From positions 62,001-126,000 of the forward strand of contig CATOSP010000004.1 in assembly GCA_951812625.1 (NCBI GenBank): DNA of 64,000 bases. Direction: 5' to 3'. The notes under the pieces are model-generated. The model was not told the DNA's origin. It ran no database searches and saw only the letters and a program-made list of their open reading frames with translations. Below are positions 38,079 through 62,507 of this stretch, piece by piece. The first letter of the stretch is position 1; each line of letters begins with the position of its first letter. The position numbers and the translations under genes are program-made. The stretch comes from an uncultured Dehalococcoidia bacterium (lineage in GTDB: Bacteria > Chloroflexota > Dehalococcoidia > Lucifugimonadales > UBA3495).

Positions 38079-38319
38079 GCTCCAAGTCCTCCGGGGTGGC
38101 ATAGATGTACTGGAGGCCAGGAGACCCACTCTCCCAGCGTTAGATACCAACTAAGATTATAACGATTATTGGAGAGGCTTCAAGTCCAGCGATTCGTATT
38201 CTCACGCCGCAGGCGATGATGAGATGATGATATGAGCGCAATCACATATTTGGAACGCAAGTGAACGTTTAGACTCCTAGCTGCCGACCAGCACGGGGAA
38301 TCTGTCACGCTCTGAATTA
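38079..38319. other. Intergenic region, 241 bp, left flank of IS630 array
   Basis: AT-rich for this window; it probably contains the DUF1800/DUF1501 promoter on the minus strand. It ends in the TA dinucleotide (38318-38319) that is the target site of the first IS630 element. Nothing else was recognised. Confidence 0.4.
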
Positions 38320-39533
38320 GTACCCAGTCAAAGTTGATTTAGGCGGTGAATCAGGGTTACCCCTTCAGATGGTATGCTGGTGCCGGATTGTGTAGTTGTG
38401 AGGTGGCGGTATGGTCCGAGAGAGGTTTGCGGTCAGACTCAACCCGGAGGAGCGGGAACGTTTGGAGCGTCTGGTGCGGGCGGGGAGGAGCCCCGCGCGA
38501 GTTGCGACACGGGCACGCATCCTGCTCAAGACCAGCGAGGGCTGGTCTGCTCCCAAGGTGGCCTTGGCCCTGGATGTGGCCGAGTCCAGCGTATACCGCA
38601 TCAAGCGGCGTTTCGCCGAGGACGGGCTGGACGGGGTGCTTAAGGACCGGCCCCAAGCCAACCGGTACCGCAAGCTGGATGACCGGGCCGGGGCCCATCT
38701 CACCGCCCTGGCCTGCACCCCGGCTCCCGAGGGGTATGACCATTGGACGCTGCGGGCCCTGGCTGGCAGGGCGGTGGAGTTGGGACTGGTTACGTCTTTG
38801 TCCCATGAGAGCGTGCGCCGGCATCTCAAAAAAGCACCCTCAAGCCGTGGCAGAGGACGCAGTGGTGCATTCCCGAGGTGAGCGCCGACTTCGTGGCCCA
38901 CATGGAGGATGTGCTGGACCTCTACGCCGAACCCTATGATCCCATGAGACCGGTGGTCTGCTTCGACGAGACCTCCACCCAGTTGCTGGTCGATGCCCGT
39001 CCGCCCATTCCGGCGGCCCCGGGGCGTCCGAGGCGGGAGGACTACGAGTACCGGCGGGAGGGCACCCGCAACCTGTTCCTGACCTGCGAGCCCCTGGCTG
39101 GCGCCATGTGGAGATAACGGAGCGGCGCACCAAGGTGGACTTCACCCATCAGATGCGCTGGCTGGCGGAGGAGGCCTACCCCGAGGCCGAAGTGGTCCGG
39201 GTGGTCTTGGACAATCTGAACACCCACCGCAAGGCGTCGTTGTACGAGGCGCTCCCGGCGGAGGAGGCCCGGCGCATCGCCCGGAAGCTGGAATTTCACC
39301 ACACGCCCAAGCATGGCAGTTGGCTGAATATGGCAGAGATCGAGTTCAGCGTCATATCCCGCCGCTGCCTCGGGCAGAGGCGCCCGGAAGAGGACAGTCT
39401 CTGCCGGGAGGTACATGCCCTGGAGCTGGAACGCAACGAGGCCCAGGCGATCATCAACTGGCGCTTCACCACCCAGGACGCCAGGACCAAACTCCATCGC
39501 CTCTATCCCCCTATTCCCAGCTTGACTGAGTAC
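38320..39533 (+). mobile_element. IS630-family element, array copy 1 (1214 bp)
   Basis: The ends are GTACCCAGTCAA at 38320 and TTGACTGAGTAC at 39533, inverted with one mismatch in 12. TA flanks both sides (38318-38319 and 39534-39535), the standard IS630/Tc1-mariner target duplication. The transposase gene is on the plus strand but is frameshifted. The right-hand TA is shared with copy 2. Confidence 0.88.
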
Positions 39534-39536
39534 TAG
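38411..39536 (+). pseudogene. IS630-family transposase (copy 1), inactivated by a 4-nt deletion
   Basis: Part A (38411-38881) is a helix-turn-helix domain: RARILLKTSEGWSAPKVALA followed by LDVAESSVYRIKRRF. At 38828-38834 the slippery A AAA AAG occurs, where a -1 shift would join part A (HLKK) to the catalytic frame starting around [17 protein letters not shown]. The catalytic part has [10 protein letters not shown] (first Asp) and VVLDNLNTHRKASLYEA (second Asp). Its NMAEIEF carries the Glu. Near 39097-39103 the frame breaks (PLAGAMWR then stop). Compared with copy 2 ([11 protein letters not shown]), four bases are missing. The final stop TAG is formed by the target TA plus the first base of copy 2. 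The transposase is therefore probably inactive. Confidence 0.82.
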
Positions 39537-40753
39537 TATTCAGTCGAATCAAGAATGGCACGGGTAGAGACGGTGGAGTTTGCGTCGGGCGTCCTTGGCG
39601 GTGAAACGCCAGTTAATGGCGGATGCCGTAGTGTTGCGCTCTGACACGCAGGCGTCCACGGCAGTTTCCAGGCTCTCCCCGTCGGCGTTGCGTCCGCGCA
39701 GGCAGGCCCGGGCCAGCACGCTGAACTCGATCTCCGCCATGTTCAGCCAACTCCCGTGCCTGGGCGTGTGATGGAACTCCAGCCGCCTGGCGATGCGCCG
39801 CGCCTCCGGGGCCGGGAAGGTCTCGTACAGCGACGCCATCCGGTGAGTGTTCAGATTGTCCAATACCAGGCGGACCACCGGAACGTCCGGGTAGGCCTCG
39901 TCCACCAGCCAGCGCATCTGATGAGCGAATTCCTGCATGGTGCGCCACTGGGTTATCTCCACATGGCGCCAGCCAGCCTTGGGCTCGCAGGTCAGGAACA
40001 GGTTGCGGGTGCCGGACCGCACGTATTCGCAGTCCTCGCGCCTGGGACGTCCGGGCCCGGCCGGCAGGGGAGCCCTGGTTTCCGCGAGCAGTTGGGTGGA
40101 GCTCTCGTCGAAGCAGACCACCGGCCTCCGGGGATCGCAAGGCTCAGCGTAGAGGTCCAGAATATCCTCCATGGCCGCCACGAACTCCCCGCCTGCCCTG
40201 GGGATACACCACTGCTGCTTCCGCCACGCCTTGAGGGTGTTTTTTTCAGGTGCAGCCGCACCGTCTCGTGGGACAGGGATTCCACCAGCCCCAACTCAAC
40301 CACCTTGCCTGCCAACGCCCGCAGCGTCCAGTGATCGTGACCCTCTGGCGCCGGGCTGCAGGCCAAGGCTATCAGGTGGGCTTCGACCTTCTCGTCCACC
40401 TTCCGGTACGGGTTGGGCGAGTTGTGGCGCCGCAGCACCTCCTCCAGTCCCTCCTCCACGTACCGGCGCCTGGCGCGGCGCACTGTGCGCTCCGACACGT
40501 CCAGGGCTGCTGCCACCTGAGAAGCGCTCCAACCCTCGTCGGTCTTCAGCAGGATGCGCGCCCGCGTGATGGCCTGAGCCGAGTTCTTCCCCGCTCTCAT
40601 CATCTTCCTGAGCCGTCCCTTTTCTGCAGCGCTCAGATGGACCCCGGACTTCTCCTGAACCATGGATGACACACCCCCACAACCCAACTCCCCCAACAGT
40701 AGCATCCCGGCTCACTCCGCGTGACATCTGCCAAAACAAGTTGGACTGAATAC
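39536..40753 (-). mobile_element. IS630-family element, array copy 2 (1218 bp)
   Basis: The ends are GTATTCAGTCGAA at 39536 and TTGGACTGAATAC at 40753, inverted with one mismatch. TA flanks at 39534-39535 and 40754-40755 are shared with copies 1 and 3. The transposase is on the minus strand, opposite to copy 1. The gene is complete if a -1 frameshift is allowed. Confidence 0.9.
39549..40663 (-). CDS. IS630-family transposase (copy 2), intact with predicted -1 frameshift
   Basis: Part A begins at ATG 40663 (MVQEKSGVHLSAAEKGRL) and carries the helix-turn-helix ARILLKTDEGWSASQVAAAL followed by DVSERTVRRARRRY. At plus coordinates 40240-40246 the minus strand reads AAAAAAAC, which contains the classic slippery heptamer A AAA AAC. 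A -1 shift links LHLKK to NTLKAWRKQQWCIP and then the DDE domain: VVCFDESSTQLL, LVLDNLNTHRMASLYE and [17 protein letters not shown]. The catalytic part ends at 39549. No lesion was found, so this copy may be active and could act on copy 1 ends, which are similar. Confidence 0.88.
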
Positions 40754-40755
40754 TA

Positions 40756-41986
40756 GTCGTCGATCACTGTTGTATTGATGGGTAGAGGCACTTGAGCTTG
40801 ACCCGTGCGTCCTCGGTAGTGAAACGCCAGTCCACCCGGACCCCCTCCCCGTTCCGTTTCTCCTGCCATGCGCTTGTTTCCTGCTCGAGGATTTCCTGAC
40901 TGGGAATCCGGCGGTCCAGACACTGCCGCGCCAGCACCCCCAACTCTATCTCGGCTATATTGAGCCAACTCCCGTGCTTCGGCGTGTAGTGTATCTCCAG
41001 CCGCCCGGCAATGCGCCGGGCCTCCGCAGGCTCGAGTGCCTCGTACAAAGATGCGGGATGATGGGTGTTCAAGTTGTCCATCACCAGCACTATCCGCTCA
41101 CGGTCGGCGTAGTCCTCGTCCACCAGTTTCCGTACCACCCGCGCCCAGTCAACCTTGGTGCGCCGCTCCGTGACTTCCACCCGGCGCCATCCCTCCAAGG
41201 GCGCGAACAGCATGAACAGGTTGCGCACCCCGTTGCGCTGGTATTCGTAATCGTATGCCATGACCGCTCCCGGTCGCGCCGGGCGGGGCTGGCGGGTCTC
41301 CTGCACCAGTTGCTTGCTGGTCTCGTCCAGACACACCAGCACCTCATTCTCTCCGTAAGAGCGGTGATAAACTTCCAGCACGTCCTCCATGGCGCACACG
41401 AAGTCGGCGCTGCCTTGGGGCGGCAGGCACCAGCACTCTTTCAGCCAAGGCTTCAGTTCGTTTTTTTCAGCGTCCGGCGCACTGTCTCCGTGCTGATGGT
41501 GTCCACTATCTCCCGCTCCATCAATCCGTCCGCCAGCATTCGCAGGGTCCAACTGACCCGTCCCTCCGGGGGCTGGGAGCAGGCCATGGCCACCAGATGC
41601 GCTTCACCCTGACCGTCCAGCTTTTTCCGGCGGCGGTTGAGTTGCTGTTTGCGGCCCAAGGCGGCCTCCACACCTTCCTCCACGCAACGGCGGCGCACCC
41701 GTTCCACCGTGGCCGTTCCTACCTTCAGGGCCCGGGCTATCTCCTGGTCCATCATTGGGCCGTCAGCCTGGTTCTCATCGCAAAGCAGCAGAATGCGGGC
41801 GTGAGTCTGCTTATAGGCCGCCGCCCGCCCCTTGGACACCATCGCCTTCAGCTCTTCCTGTTCCTCCTCCGTCAGTCCCACACGATATTTCTTCGCCATC
41901 ACATCCACCTCCACTTCCTGACCTTCTTCCCTTGGCTGCTTGCCCTTTACATCTTACCAGCCATCATTACAAAGATTTCGTACTAC
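40756..41986 (-). mobile_element. IS630-family element, array copy 3 (1231 bp)
   Basis: TA dinucleotides at 40754-40755 and 41987-41988 bound a segment with imperfect inverted ends (GTCGTCGATCACTGTTGT against GTAGTACGAAATCTTTGT). Its transposase is of a different subtype from copies 1 and 2. The left boundary is fixed by the abutting end of copy 2, the right by the expected length and the weaker end match. Confidence 0.78.
40764..41899 (-). CDS. IS630-family transposase (copy 3), intact with predicted -1 frameshift
   Basis: Part A starts at ATG 41899 (MAKKYRVGLTEEEQEELK) after GGAGGTGGATGTG and contains HARILLLCDENQADGPMMDQ followed by EIARALKVGTATVERVRRR. At plus 41461-41467 the minus strand reads AAAAAAACG with slippery A AAA AAC. 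In frame 0 the product ends LKKTN-stop; a -1 shift gives [20 protein letters not shown] and the DDE domain: [16 protein letters not shown] (Asp), [20 protein letters not shown] (Asp) and HGSWLNIAEIELGVLARQ (Glu). It ends KLKCLYPSIQQ. No lesion was seen. Its closest relative in the window is the element at 61295-62504. Confidence 0.86.
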
Positions 41987-60724: not shown

Positions 60725-61232
60725 GACCCTTGGGTCATCAACACTTCGAACACGCTGGACTCGTGCCGCTGACCTGGGGTCAGCACGAATGCCACCGGCT
60801 TGCCCTGACCCTCGACTCTCAGATGGACTTTGGTACCGAACCTTCCCCGGGACCGGCCCAGCGCCTGATCGCCCTCCCCCTTTTTGCCCCGGCAGCGTGC
60901 TGATGTGCCCGCACGTTGGTGCCGTCCACGTAATGGACTTCCCACTCAACCTGACCGATGTCATCAGCTTTCCTCTGCACCTCAGCCAGAAGCCGGTCCC
61001 ACAATCCCTGCTTCCGCCACCGGTAGAAACGGCTGGTTATGGTAGCCCAGGGACCAAAGCGCCCGGGCAGGTCCCGCCATGGGGCACCGGTACGCAAAAT
61101 CCACAAAATCCCGTTGATGACCGTGCGATGGTCCTTCCCGGGTCTTCCGGTCCTCGGCTTCCGGGCCGGCAATAGCGGCCTCAGTCGTCGCCATTGATCA
61201 TCCGTTAAATCTCCTCGCCCCACACACCTCAC
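60725..61232 (-). pseudogene. IS5-family transposase, truncated at its C-terminal half
   Basis: From GTG 61232 the frame reads GDLTDDQWRRLRPLLPARKP, GRPGKDHRTVINGILWILRT, GAPWRDLPGRFGPW and VEWEVHYVDGTNVRAHQHAA followed by GAK. This is the N-terminal half of IS5-family (IS427-like) transposases, including the first catalytic Asp in YVDGT. A C AAA AAG run near 60895-60900 then offers a -1 shift into GDQALGRSRGRFGTKVHLR, GKPVAFVLTPGQRH and FEVLMTQG, matching the usual part B. The homology ends near 60725, before the remaining catalytic residues. The breakpoint coincides with the end of the sulfite-oxidase-like gene. Confidence 0.8.
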
Positions 61233-61294
61233 CTCTCATTTCAACCTGTCCCTTCCAGTTTAGGCCCCACAATTGGGTTTGCAAACACCCCATA

Positions 61295-62504
61295 GCAGTT
61301 AGACAGGGTTGAAGTGATGGATAATGAGGTAAATGGGAAGGGCCAAAGAAGGAAGTGCGGGGAGGGGGAGATGGAAAAGAAGTACCGGGTGCAACTGACG
61401 CAGGAGGAGCAACAGGAACCAAAGGGGTTGGTGTCCAAAGGGCAGGCATCGGCTTACCGGCAGACCCATGCCCGGATTCTCATGTTAAGCGATGAGAACC
61501 AGGCGGAAGGGCCGATGAAGGACGGGGAGATAGCCCGGTCTCTGAAGGTGGGGCGGGCGACGGTGGAGCGGGTGCGCCGCCGCTGTGTGGAGGAGGGTCT
61601 GGAGCGGGCTTTGGGACGCCGGGAGCAACTCAATGGCCGTCGGAAGAAGCTGGACGGTCAGGGGGAAGCTCACCTGATTGCGCTGGCCTGCGGAGAACTG
61701 CCGGAAGGCCGGGCAGGTTGTACGCTGAAGCTGTTGGCGGACCGGCTGGTTGAGTGCGAGATAATAGAGAGCATCAGCACTGAAACGGTGCGCCAGACGC
61801 TGAAAAAAACCAACTCAAGCCCTGGCTGAAGGAGTGCTGGTGCATTCCGCCCCAGGGCAGCGCCGAGTTTGTCTGCGCCATGGAAGACGTGCTGGAGGTC
61901 TATCATTGCCAGTATGGAGACAAGGATGTGCTGGTGTGCTTGGACGAGACCAGCAAGCAGCAGGTGAAAGAGACCCGTCAGGCCCGTCCATCGCGGCCTG
62001 GGGCGGCCAGGAGTTACGATTACGAATACCAGCGCAACGGGGTGAGCAACCTGTTGATGGTGTTTGCGCCCCTGGAAGGGTGGCAGTGACGGACCGGCGT
62101 ACCAAAGCCGATTGGGCCCGGGTGGTGCGGAAACTGGTGGATGAGGACTACCCGGACAAGGACCGTATCGTCCTGGTGATGGACAACTTGAACACCCGCC
62201 ACCCAGCCTCATTGTATGAGGCGTTTGAACCCGCCGGGGCCCGGCGCATCGCGGGGAAGCTGGAATTTCACCACACGCCCAAGCATGGCAGTTGGCTGAA
62301 TATGGCAGAGATCGAGTTCAGCGTCATATCCCGCCGCTGCCTCGGGCAGAGGCACCCGGAAGAGGATAGTCTCTGCCGGGAGGTACATGCTCTGGAGCTG
62401 GAACTCAATGAGGCCCAGGCGATCATCAACTGGCGCTTCACCACCCAGGACGCCAGAATCAAGTTGAAGTCCTTGTATCCATCAATCCAATGCTGAAACA
62501 CTAC
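61295..62504 (+). mobile_element. IS630-family element, mosaic copy 4 (about 1210 bp)
   Basis: TA dinucleotides flank at 61293-61294 and 62505-62506. Ends are weakly inverted (GCAGTTAGACAGGGTTG against GTAGTGTTTCAGCATTG). Most of the element is like array copy 3, but about 190 bp near 62261-62450 is almost identical to array copy 1. It sits beside the truncated IS5. Confidence 0.75.
61371..62496 (+). pseudogene. IS630-family transposase (copy 4), frameshifted mosaic
   Basis: Part A begins at ATG 61371 (MEKKYRVQLTQEEQQEPKGL) after GGAGGGGGAG and resembles copy 3 throughout. A slippery A AAA AAC run at 61803-61810 would allow a -1 shift into [20 protein letters not shown] and [16 protein letters not shown]. 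At about 62083-62090 the frame breaks (PLEGWQ then stop); compared with copy 3 (PLEGWRRVEVTERRTK) roughly ten bases are missing. The rest ([49 protein letters not shown]) is in another frame. The transposase should be inactive. Confidence 0.8.
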
Positions 62505-62507
62505 TAG

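Follow-up and report, generated by a model that had tools for sequence, protein, structure and literature searches.

Whether one transposon copy can be partly overwritten by a diverged relative of the same genome is the question raised by the fourth IS630-type copy in the DNA stretch studied here (the window; 64,000 nucleotides, bases 62001-126000 of contig C4 in an assembly of 4.03 Mb and five contigs). A preliminary description had read copy 4 as a mosaic, with the type of copy 3 over most of its length and an internal tract of the type of copy 1. In this study copy 4 was compared with copies 1-3 and with all related elements that the genome was found to contain, and the mosaic of two IS630 types was confirmed by sliding identity, by informative sites and by a sibling element, L150.

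A search with Pfam DDE_3 found 32 IS630-type transposase regions in the genome, most of which sorted into subfamilies A-F. Type A consists of seven near-identical elements, i.e., copy 1 (38319-39536, forward strand) and six others; type B has about ten near-identical copies; type C includes copy 2 and others; type D comprises copy 3 and four others (99-100% identical); and type F is a single element at C2:1.956 Mb. Copy 4 falls with L150 and L151 into the small type E. The assignment of copy 4 to the copy 3 type was thus right in a broad sense, but the two are 78% identical and copy 4 belongs to a subfamily of its own. PF13358 (DDE_3) matched all four copies in the window, and copy 3 passed NF033545 with a score of 136 bits (cut-off 100). 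Elements belonging to different IS630 subtypes were also seen lying tip to tip with common CTAG junctions (window 39530-39545 and 40745-40760), and five of them stand in a row at C2:1954000-1961500 (L152) in the order A-B-B-F-B. Insertion into a CTAG formed by the end of another copy would explain this arrangement.

Copy 4 is a whole IS630-family element of 1,215 bp on the forward strand, running from the left TA to the end of the right CTAG at 61293-62507, slightly beyond the span of 61295-62504 first given for it. Its ends are common to L151 (left) and L150 (right), whose flanks are otherwise unrelated. The left terminal repeat, TAGCAGTTAGACAG (61293-61306, forward), imperfectly matches the reverse complement of the right end, CTAGTAGTGTTTCAG, the right terminal repeat lying at 62493-62507 on the reverse strand. 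Inverted repeats are therefore present but imperfect (GCAGTTAGACAG vs. GTAGTGTTTCAG after TA), and these copy-4-type repeats differ from the copy-1-type ends (TAGTACCCAGTCAA). TA is found at both ends, as for TA insertion (left ...CCCCA/TAGCAG, right ...CACTACTAG/ATGC). The end of an IS4/5-type element (DUF4096; window 60819-61290) adjoins copy 4 on the left, and the same end adjoins the type-A copy L002 on its right.

The transposase of copy 4 is read in two frames. ORF1 (61314-61829, forward) holds the N-terminal DNA-binding part (HTH_32, HTH_29; NF033545 profile 4-110), and ORF2 (61834-62496, forward) holds the C-terminal DDE part (DDE_3 profile 53-145; NF033545 profile 199-295), its first part being outside the transposase frame. 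Each ORF scored under the whole-protein cut-off of NF033545 because the gene is split; by the two parts together and by PF13358, copy 4 is identified as carrying an IS630-type transposase with DDE_3. A search of solved structures by sequence gave no match. The frames change at a run of seven A (61803-61809, forward), as in the other subtypes examined, all of which keep a run of six to seven A at this position (38829-38834 in the window, and equivalents elsewhere). Judged from sequence, such conservation suggests programmed frameshifting or transcriptional slippage. Frameshift expression has been reported for the IS630 family (PMC5009743), with which the two-frame layout of copy 4 is consistent.

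Copy 4 has a further frame change. L150 contains three copies of a 10-bp unit, GAAGGGTGGC, and L151 contains two; copy 4 has lost one unit and retains a single one (62075-62084, forward), a contraction that shifts the transposase frame upstream of the tract. Copy 4 is for this reason probably a decayed copy, inactive on its own, and the acquired catalytic segment probably does not end up in a functional enzyme. The exchange itself kept the reading frame, the frameshift being a separate matter. Variable short tandem repeats occur at this place in the transposase gene both in type A (TGGC; window 39090-39120) and in type E (GAAGGGTGGC), and changes in repeat number break the frame in copy 1, L002, copy 4 and L150.

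The foreign tract lies near the 3' end of the transposase gene. Sliding identity between copy 4 and copy 1 was 45-80% up to about 62241, 90-100% over 62242-62461 and at most 50% thereafter, i.e., the drop, proposed beforehand as a check, was sharp at both borders. Sites compared with the unconverted sibling place the first donor site at 62255, the last at 62455 and the next native one at 62457, so that the converted tract (62255-62456, forward) is about 201 bp long. A tract had been described at 62261-62450; it is indeed there, with bounds about 6 bp wider at each end (62255-62455/6). The five differences to copy 1 counted in the narrower interval were exact (62354, 62367, 62391, 62405 and 62409), and the tract does encode in frame the 20-residue stretch noted earlier. 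The predicted catalytic Glu, inferred from its motif, falls within it (codon 62308-62310). The equivalent stretch of copy 1 is 39283-39484 on the forward strand (offset 22972).

Within the tract, identity between copy 4 and each of the seven type-A elements is 96-98.5%, whereas native and donor types are only 58% identical there and the two subfamilies 55-65% identical outside it. The tract is collinear, with zero indels. At the left border the last native-specific site is 62254, and 62253 matches neither parent. This border abuts a 17-bp block (62236-62252, forward) that is identical in native L150 and the donor elements; nowhere else in the aligned 3' region do they share so long a run. Copy 4 has a private change within the block at 62237. 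Another run shared by native and donor types, of 13 bp (62429-62441, forward), lies just inside the right border. Native sequence resumes at 62457-62507 (forward) and equals L150 at 51/51 positions.

The decisive evidence comes from outside the window. On the minus strand at C2:1645800-1648000 (C2:1646.5 kb), L150 preserves the 3' part of a type-E element; it shares the terminal repeat of copy 4 but is set in a different flank. In the sequence to the left and right of the tract, 226 of 232 positions are the same in L150 and copy 4; within the tract only 118 of 201 are, and there L150 resembles types D and F and the G010 copy of another genome. The same native state runs through the tract in the outgroups copy 3, L152 and G010. 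Since L150 keeps the unconverted state, the event can be polarised: copy 4 was changed and type A was the source. The other type-E element, L151, could not be used here, as its match to copy 4 ends at 62181, before the tract.

With native L150 and donor L002 as parents, 169 sites were informative. Left of 62256 there were 62 native and two donor sites, one of them the first site of the tract (62255) and the other (62222) looking like a change in L150; inside the tract 81 were donor and one native; and to the right all 23 were native. They form a single native-donor-native block with two stray sites, and none of 200,000 shuffles was as extreme. Maximum-likelihood trees of the tract and of its two flanking regions conflicted over copy 4. 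The tract tree grouped it with type A (98/96) and rejected its placement with D/E/F (p-AU 0.0076), whereas both flank trees grouped it with D/E/F (100/100) and rejected type A (p-AU 8e-8 and 2e-63). The sibling allele, the site block and the tree conflict together establish copy 4 as a recombinant with a donor of the copy-1 subfamily, and recombination or gene conversion between IS630 subtypes, as originally suggested, was thereby strongly supported.

The suggestion that the exchange took place between copies 22 kb apart was not supported: the genome has six other type-A elements, of which three are closer to the tract than copy 1 is. Over 62256-62456 the differences to copy 4 numbered 3 in L002, 4 in L003 and in L004, 5 in copy 1 and in L006, and 8 in L007 and in L008. 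Copy 1 is thus not the best candidate, and its role as sole donor is not supported. The closest donor-type copy is L002 (C4:32 kb), with 3 differences in 202 sites, of which one is private to copy 4; no extant copy is exact. Type-A tracts are retained in 7/7 type-A copies, and so there is no reciprocal product. No comparable tract was found in 59 genomes of relatives, in 250 genomes belonging to the order or in a sample of 393 from the class (about 640 other genomes for order and class), the best match in the order being about 78% over the tract length, and the exact 26-base tract pattern was not found in viral contigs. The event was therefore probably local. A search for the same mosaic elsewhere had been proposed, and no genome searched contained it; a stable mosaic family was likewise not found among the 250 order and 393 class genomes.

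The explanation that we consider very probable is that about 201 bp of copy 4, a type-E element, was overwritten non-reciprocally by the homologous stretch of a type-A IS630 element of the same genome. We infer that this happened within this lineage and that the copying was by homology-directed repair. RecA would have paired the strands at the 17-bp block by the left border, a short synthesis on the type-A template would have followed, and a return to the original strand would have let the native sequence resume. In favour of conversion, the left border abuts the longest block of native/donor identity; recA, mutS and mutL are all present in the genome. RecA recombination, however, normally needs higher identity than the 58% found in the tract or the 55-65% beside it, and this low parental identity, with MutS and MutL present, speaks against the explanation, as do the lack of an exact extant donor and the incomplete state of the unconverted sibling, which consists of a 3' fragment alone. 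Loss of mismatch repair as a cause of recombination between diverged sequences was rejected; as mutS and mutL are present, it does not explain the tolerated divergence. Repair of an excision gap was also not favoured, as native sequence is found at both element ends and over the 51 bp beside the right end.

The low identity of the parents (58-65%) could possibly point to a different copying step, in which a microhomology-guided replicative switch of template from type E to type A and back, not RecA conversion, transferred the tract. The short homology at the right border (GACGCC, then a donor-specific A) and the sole 17-bp block at the left would suit such a switch, but the tract is exactly collinear without an indel, and its left border falls next to the longest stretch of homology, as pairing-based conversion predicts. 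We regard this as possible, though short of probable, and it competes with conversion only over how the sequence was copied. That the mosaic was made in another lineage and arrived ready-made by horizontal transfer is unlikely. IS630 elements are mobile, and with the closest donor 3 sites off the true one may be unsampled; on the other hand, this genome itself contains type-A donors at 96-98.5% as well as the type-E sibling with the unconverted tract, and 0/~640 genomes of the order and class carry a comparable tract.

Misassembly of type-A reads into copy 4 has to be considered because seven near-identical type-A copies exist and short-read assemblies can switch between repeats. It would need two switches within 201 bp between sequences 58% identical, in an assembly of only five contigs, and T at 62405, found in no other aligned element, and T at 62367, found in no donor, also speak against it; such an artefact is very improbable. 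Finally, the likeness of the tract could be put down to convergence or to purifying selection acting on the catalytic region, as a conserved catalytic motif lies within the tract. The near-total identity nevertheless includes silent sites, other subtypes with the same motif are only 40-85% identical there, and the comparison with L150, whose tract is different, refutes this reading, to which we give practically no credence.

Conversion by a type-A element of the same genome thus remains the preferred account, and copy 4 may not be the only product of such copying. A second clear inter-subtype mosaic is present at C2:1105202-1106126 (L153:3203-4127; L179), where a 5'-truncated type-C start is joined to a type-A body; its first ~140 bp are 96-97% like copy 2 and the remainder is type A. 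This is consistent with frequent copying between subfamilies. It is nonetheless rather doubtful that copying between ~58%-identical IS subfamilies is frequent in this lineage, shuffling catalytic segments and leaving the IS630 subtype boundaries partly reticulate. If such events were common, trees of whole transposase genes would mislead about IS subfamilies, and bacterial gene conversion would span a wider sequence divergence than usually assumed. In copy 4 a transposon has been partly overwritten by a distant relative, and the recipient, the donor family and the borders can all be read from a single genome; it is an unusually clean example because the version that was not overwritten survives in that genome.

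Ectopic gene conversion is a known process, and copy 4 adds a well-resolved new example of it across IS630 subfamilies, unusual in the low identity of the partners. Gene conversion has been reviewed (Santoyo and Romero 2005, listed in PMC3004938) and is known among IS copies of Wolbachia wBm (Cordaux 2009, as cited in PMC3196728 and PMC3004938). As described in the papers citing that work, the wBm case likewise involves non-reciprocal transfer between IS copies of one genome, including copies with disabled transposases, but its copies are highly similar, whereas the partners of copy 4 are of different subfamilies and 58-65% identical at the site. In Mycobacterium tuberculosis, gene conversion between paralogues was studied by long reads, comparing PE/PPE genes among strains (PMC12046097); here, in contrast, mobile-element copies within one genome were compared. 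Copy 4 resembles the IS630 family (NF033545, PF13358) in its helix-turn-helix and DDE_3 transposase, its TA/CTAG-flanked ends and its two-frame layout with an A run, and differs from it in an additional frameshift and in its catalytic segment, which stems from another subtype.
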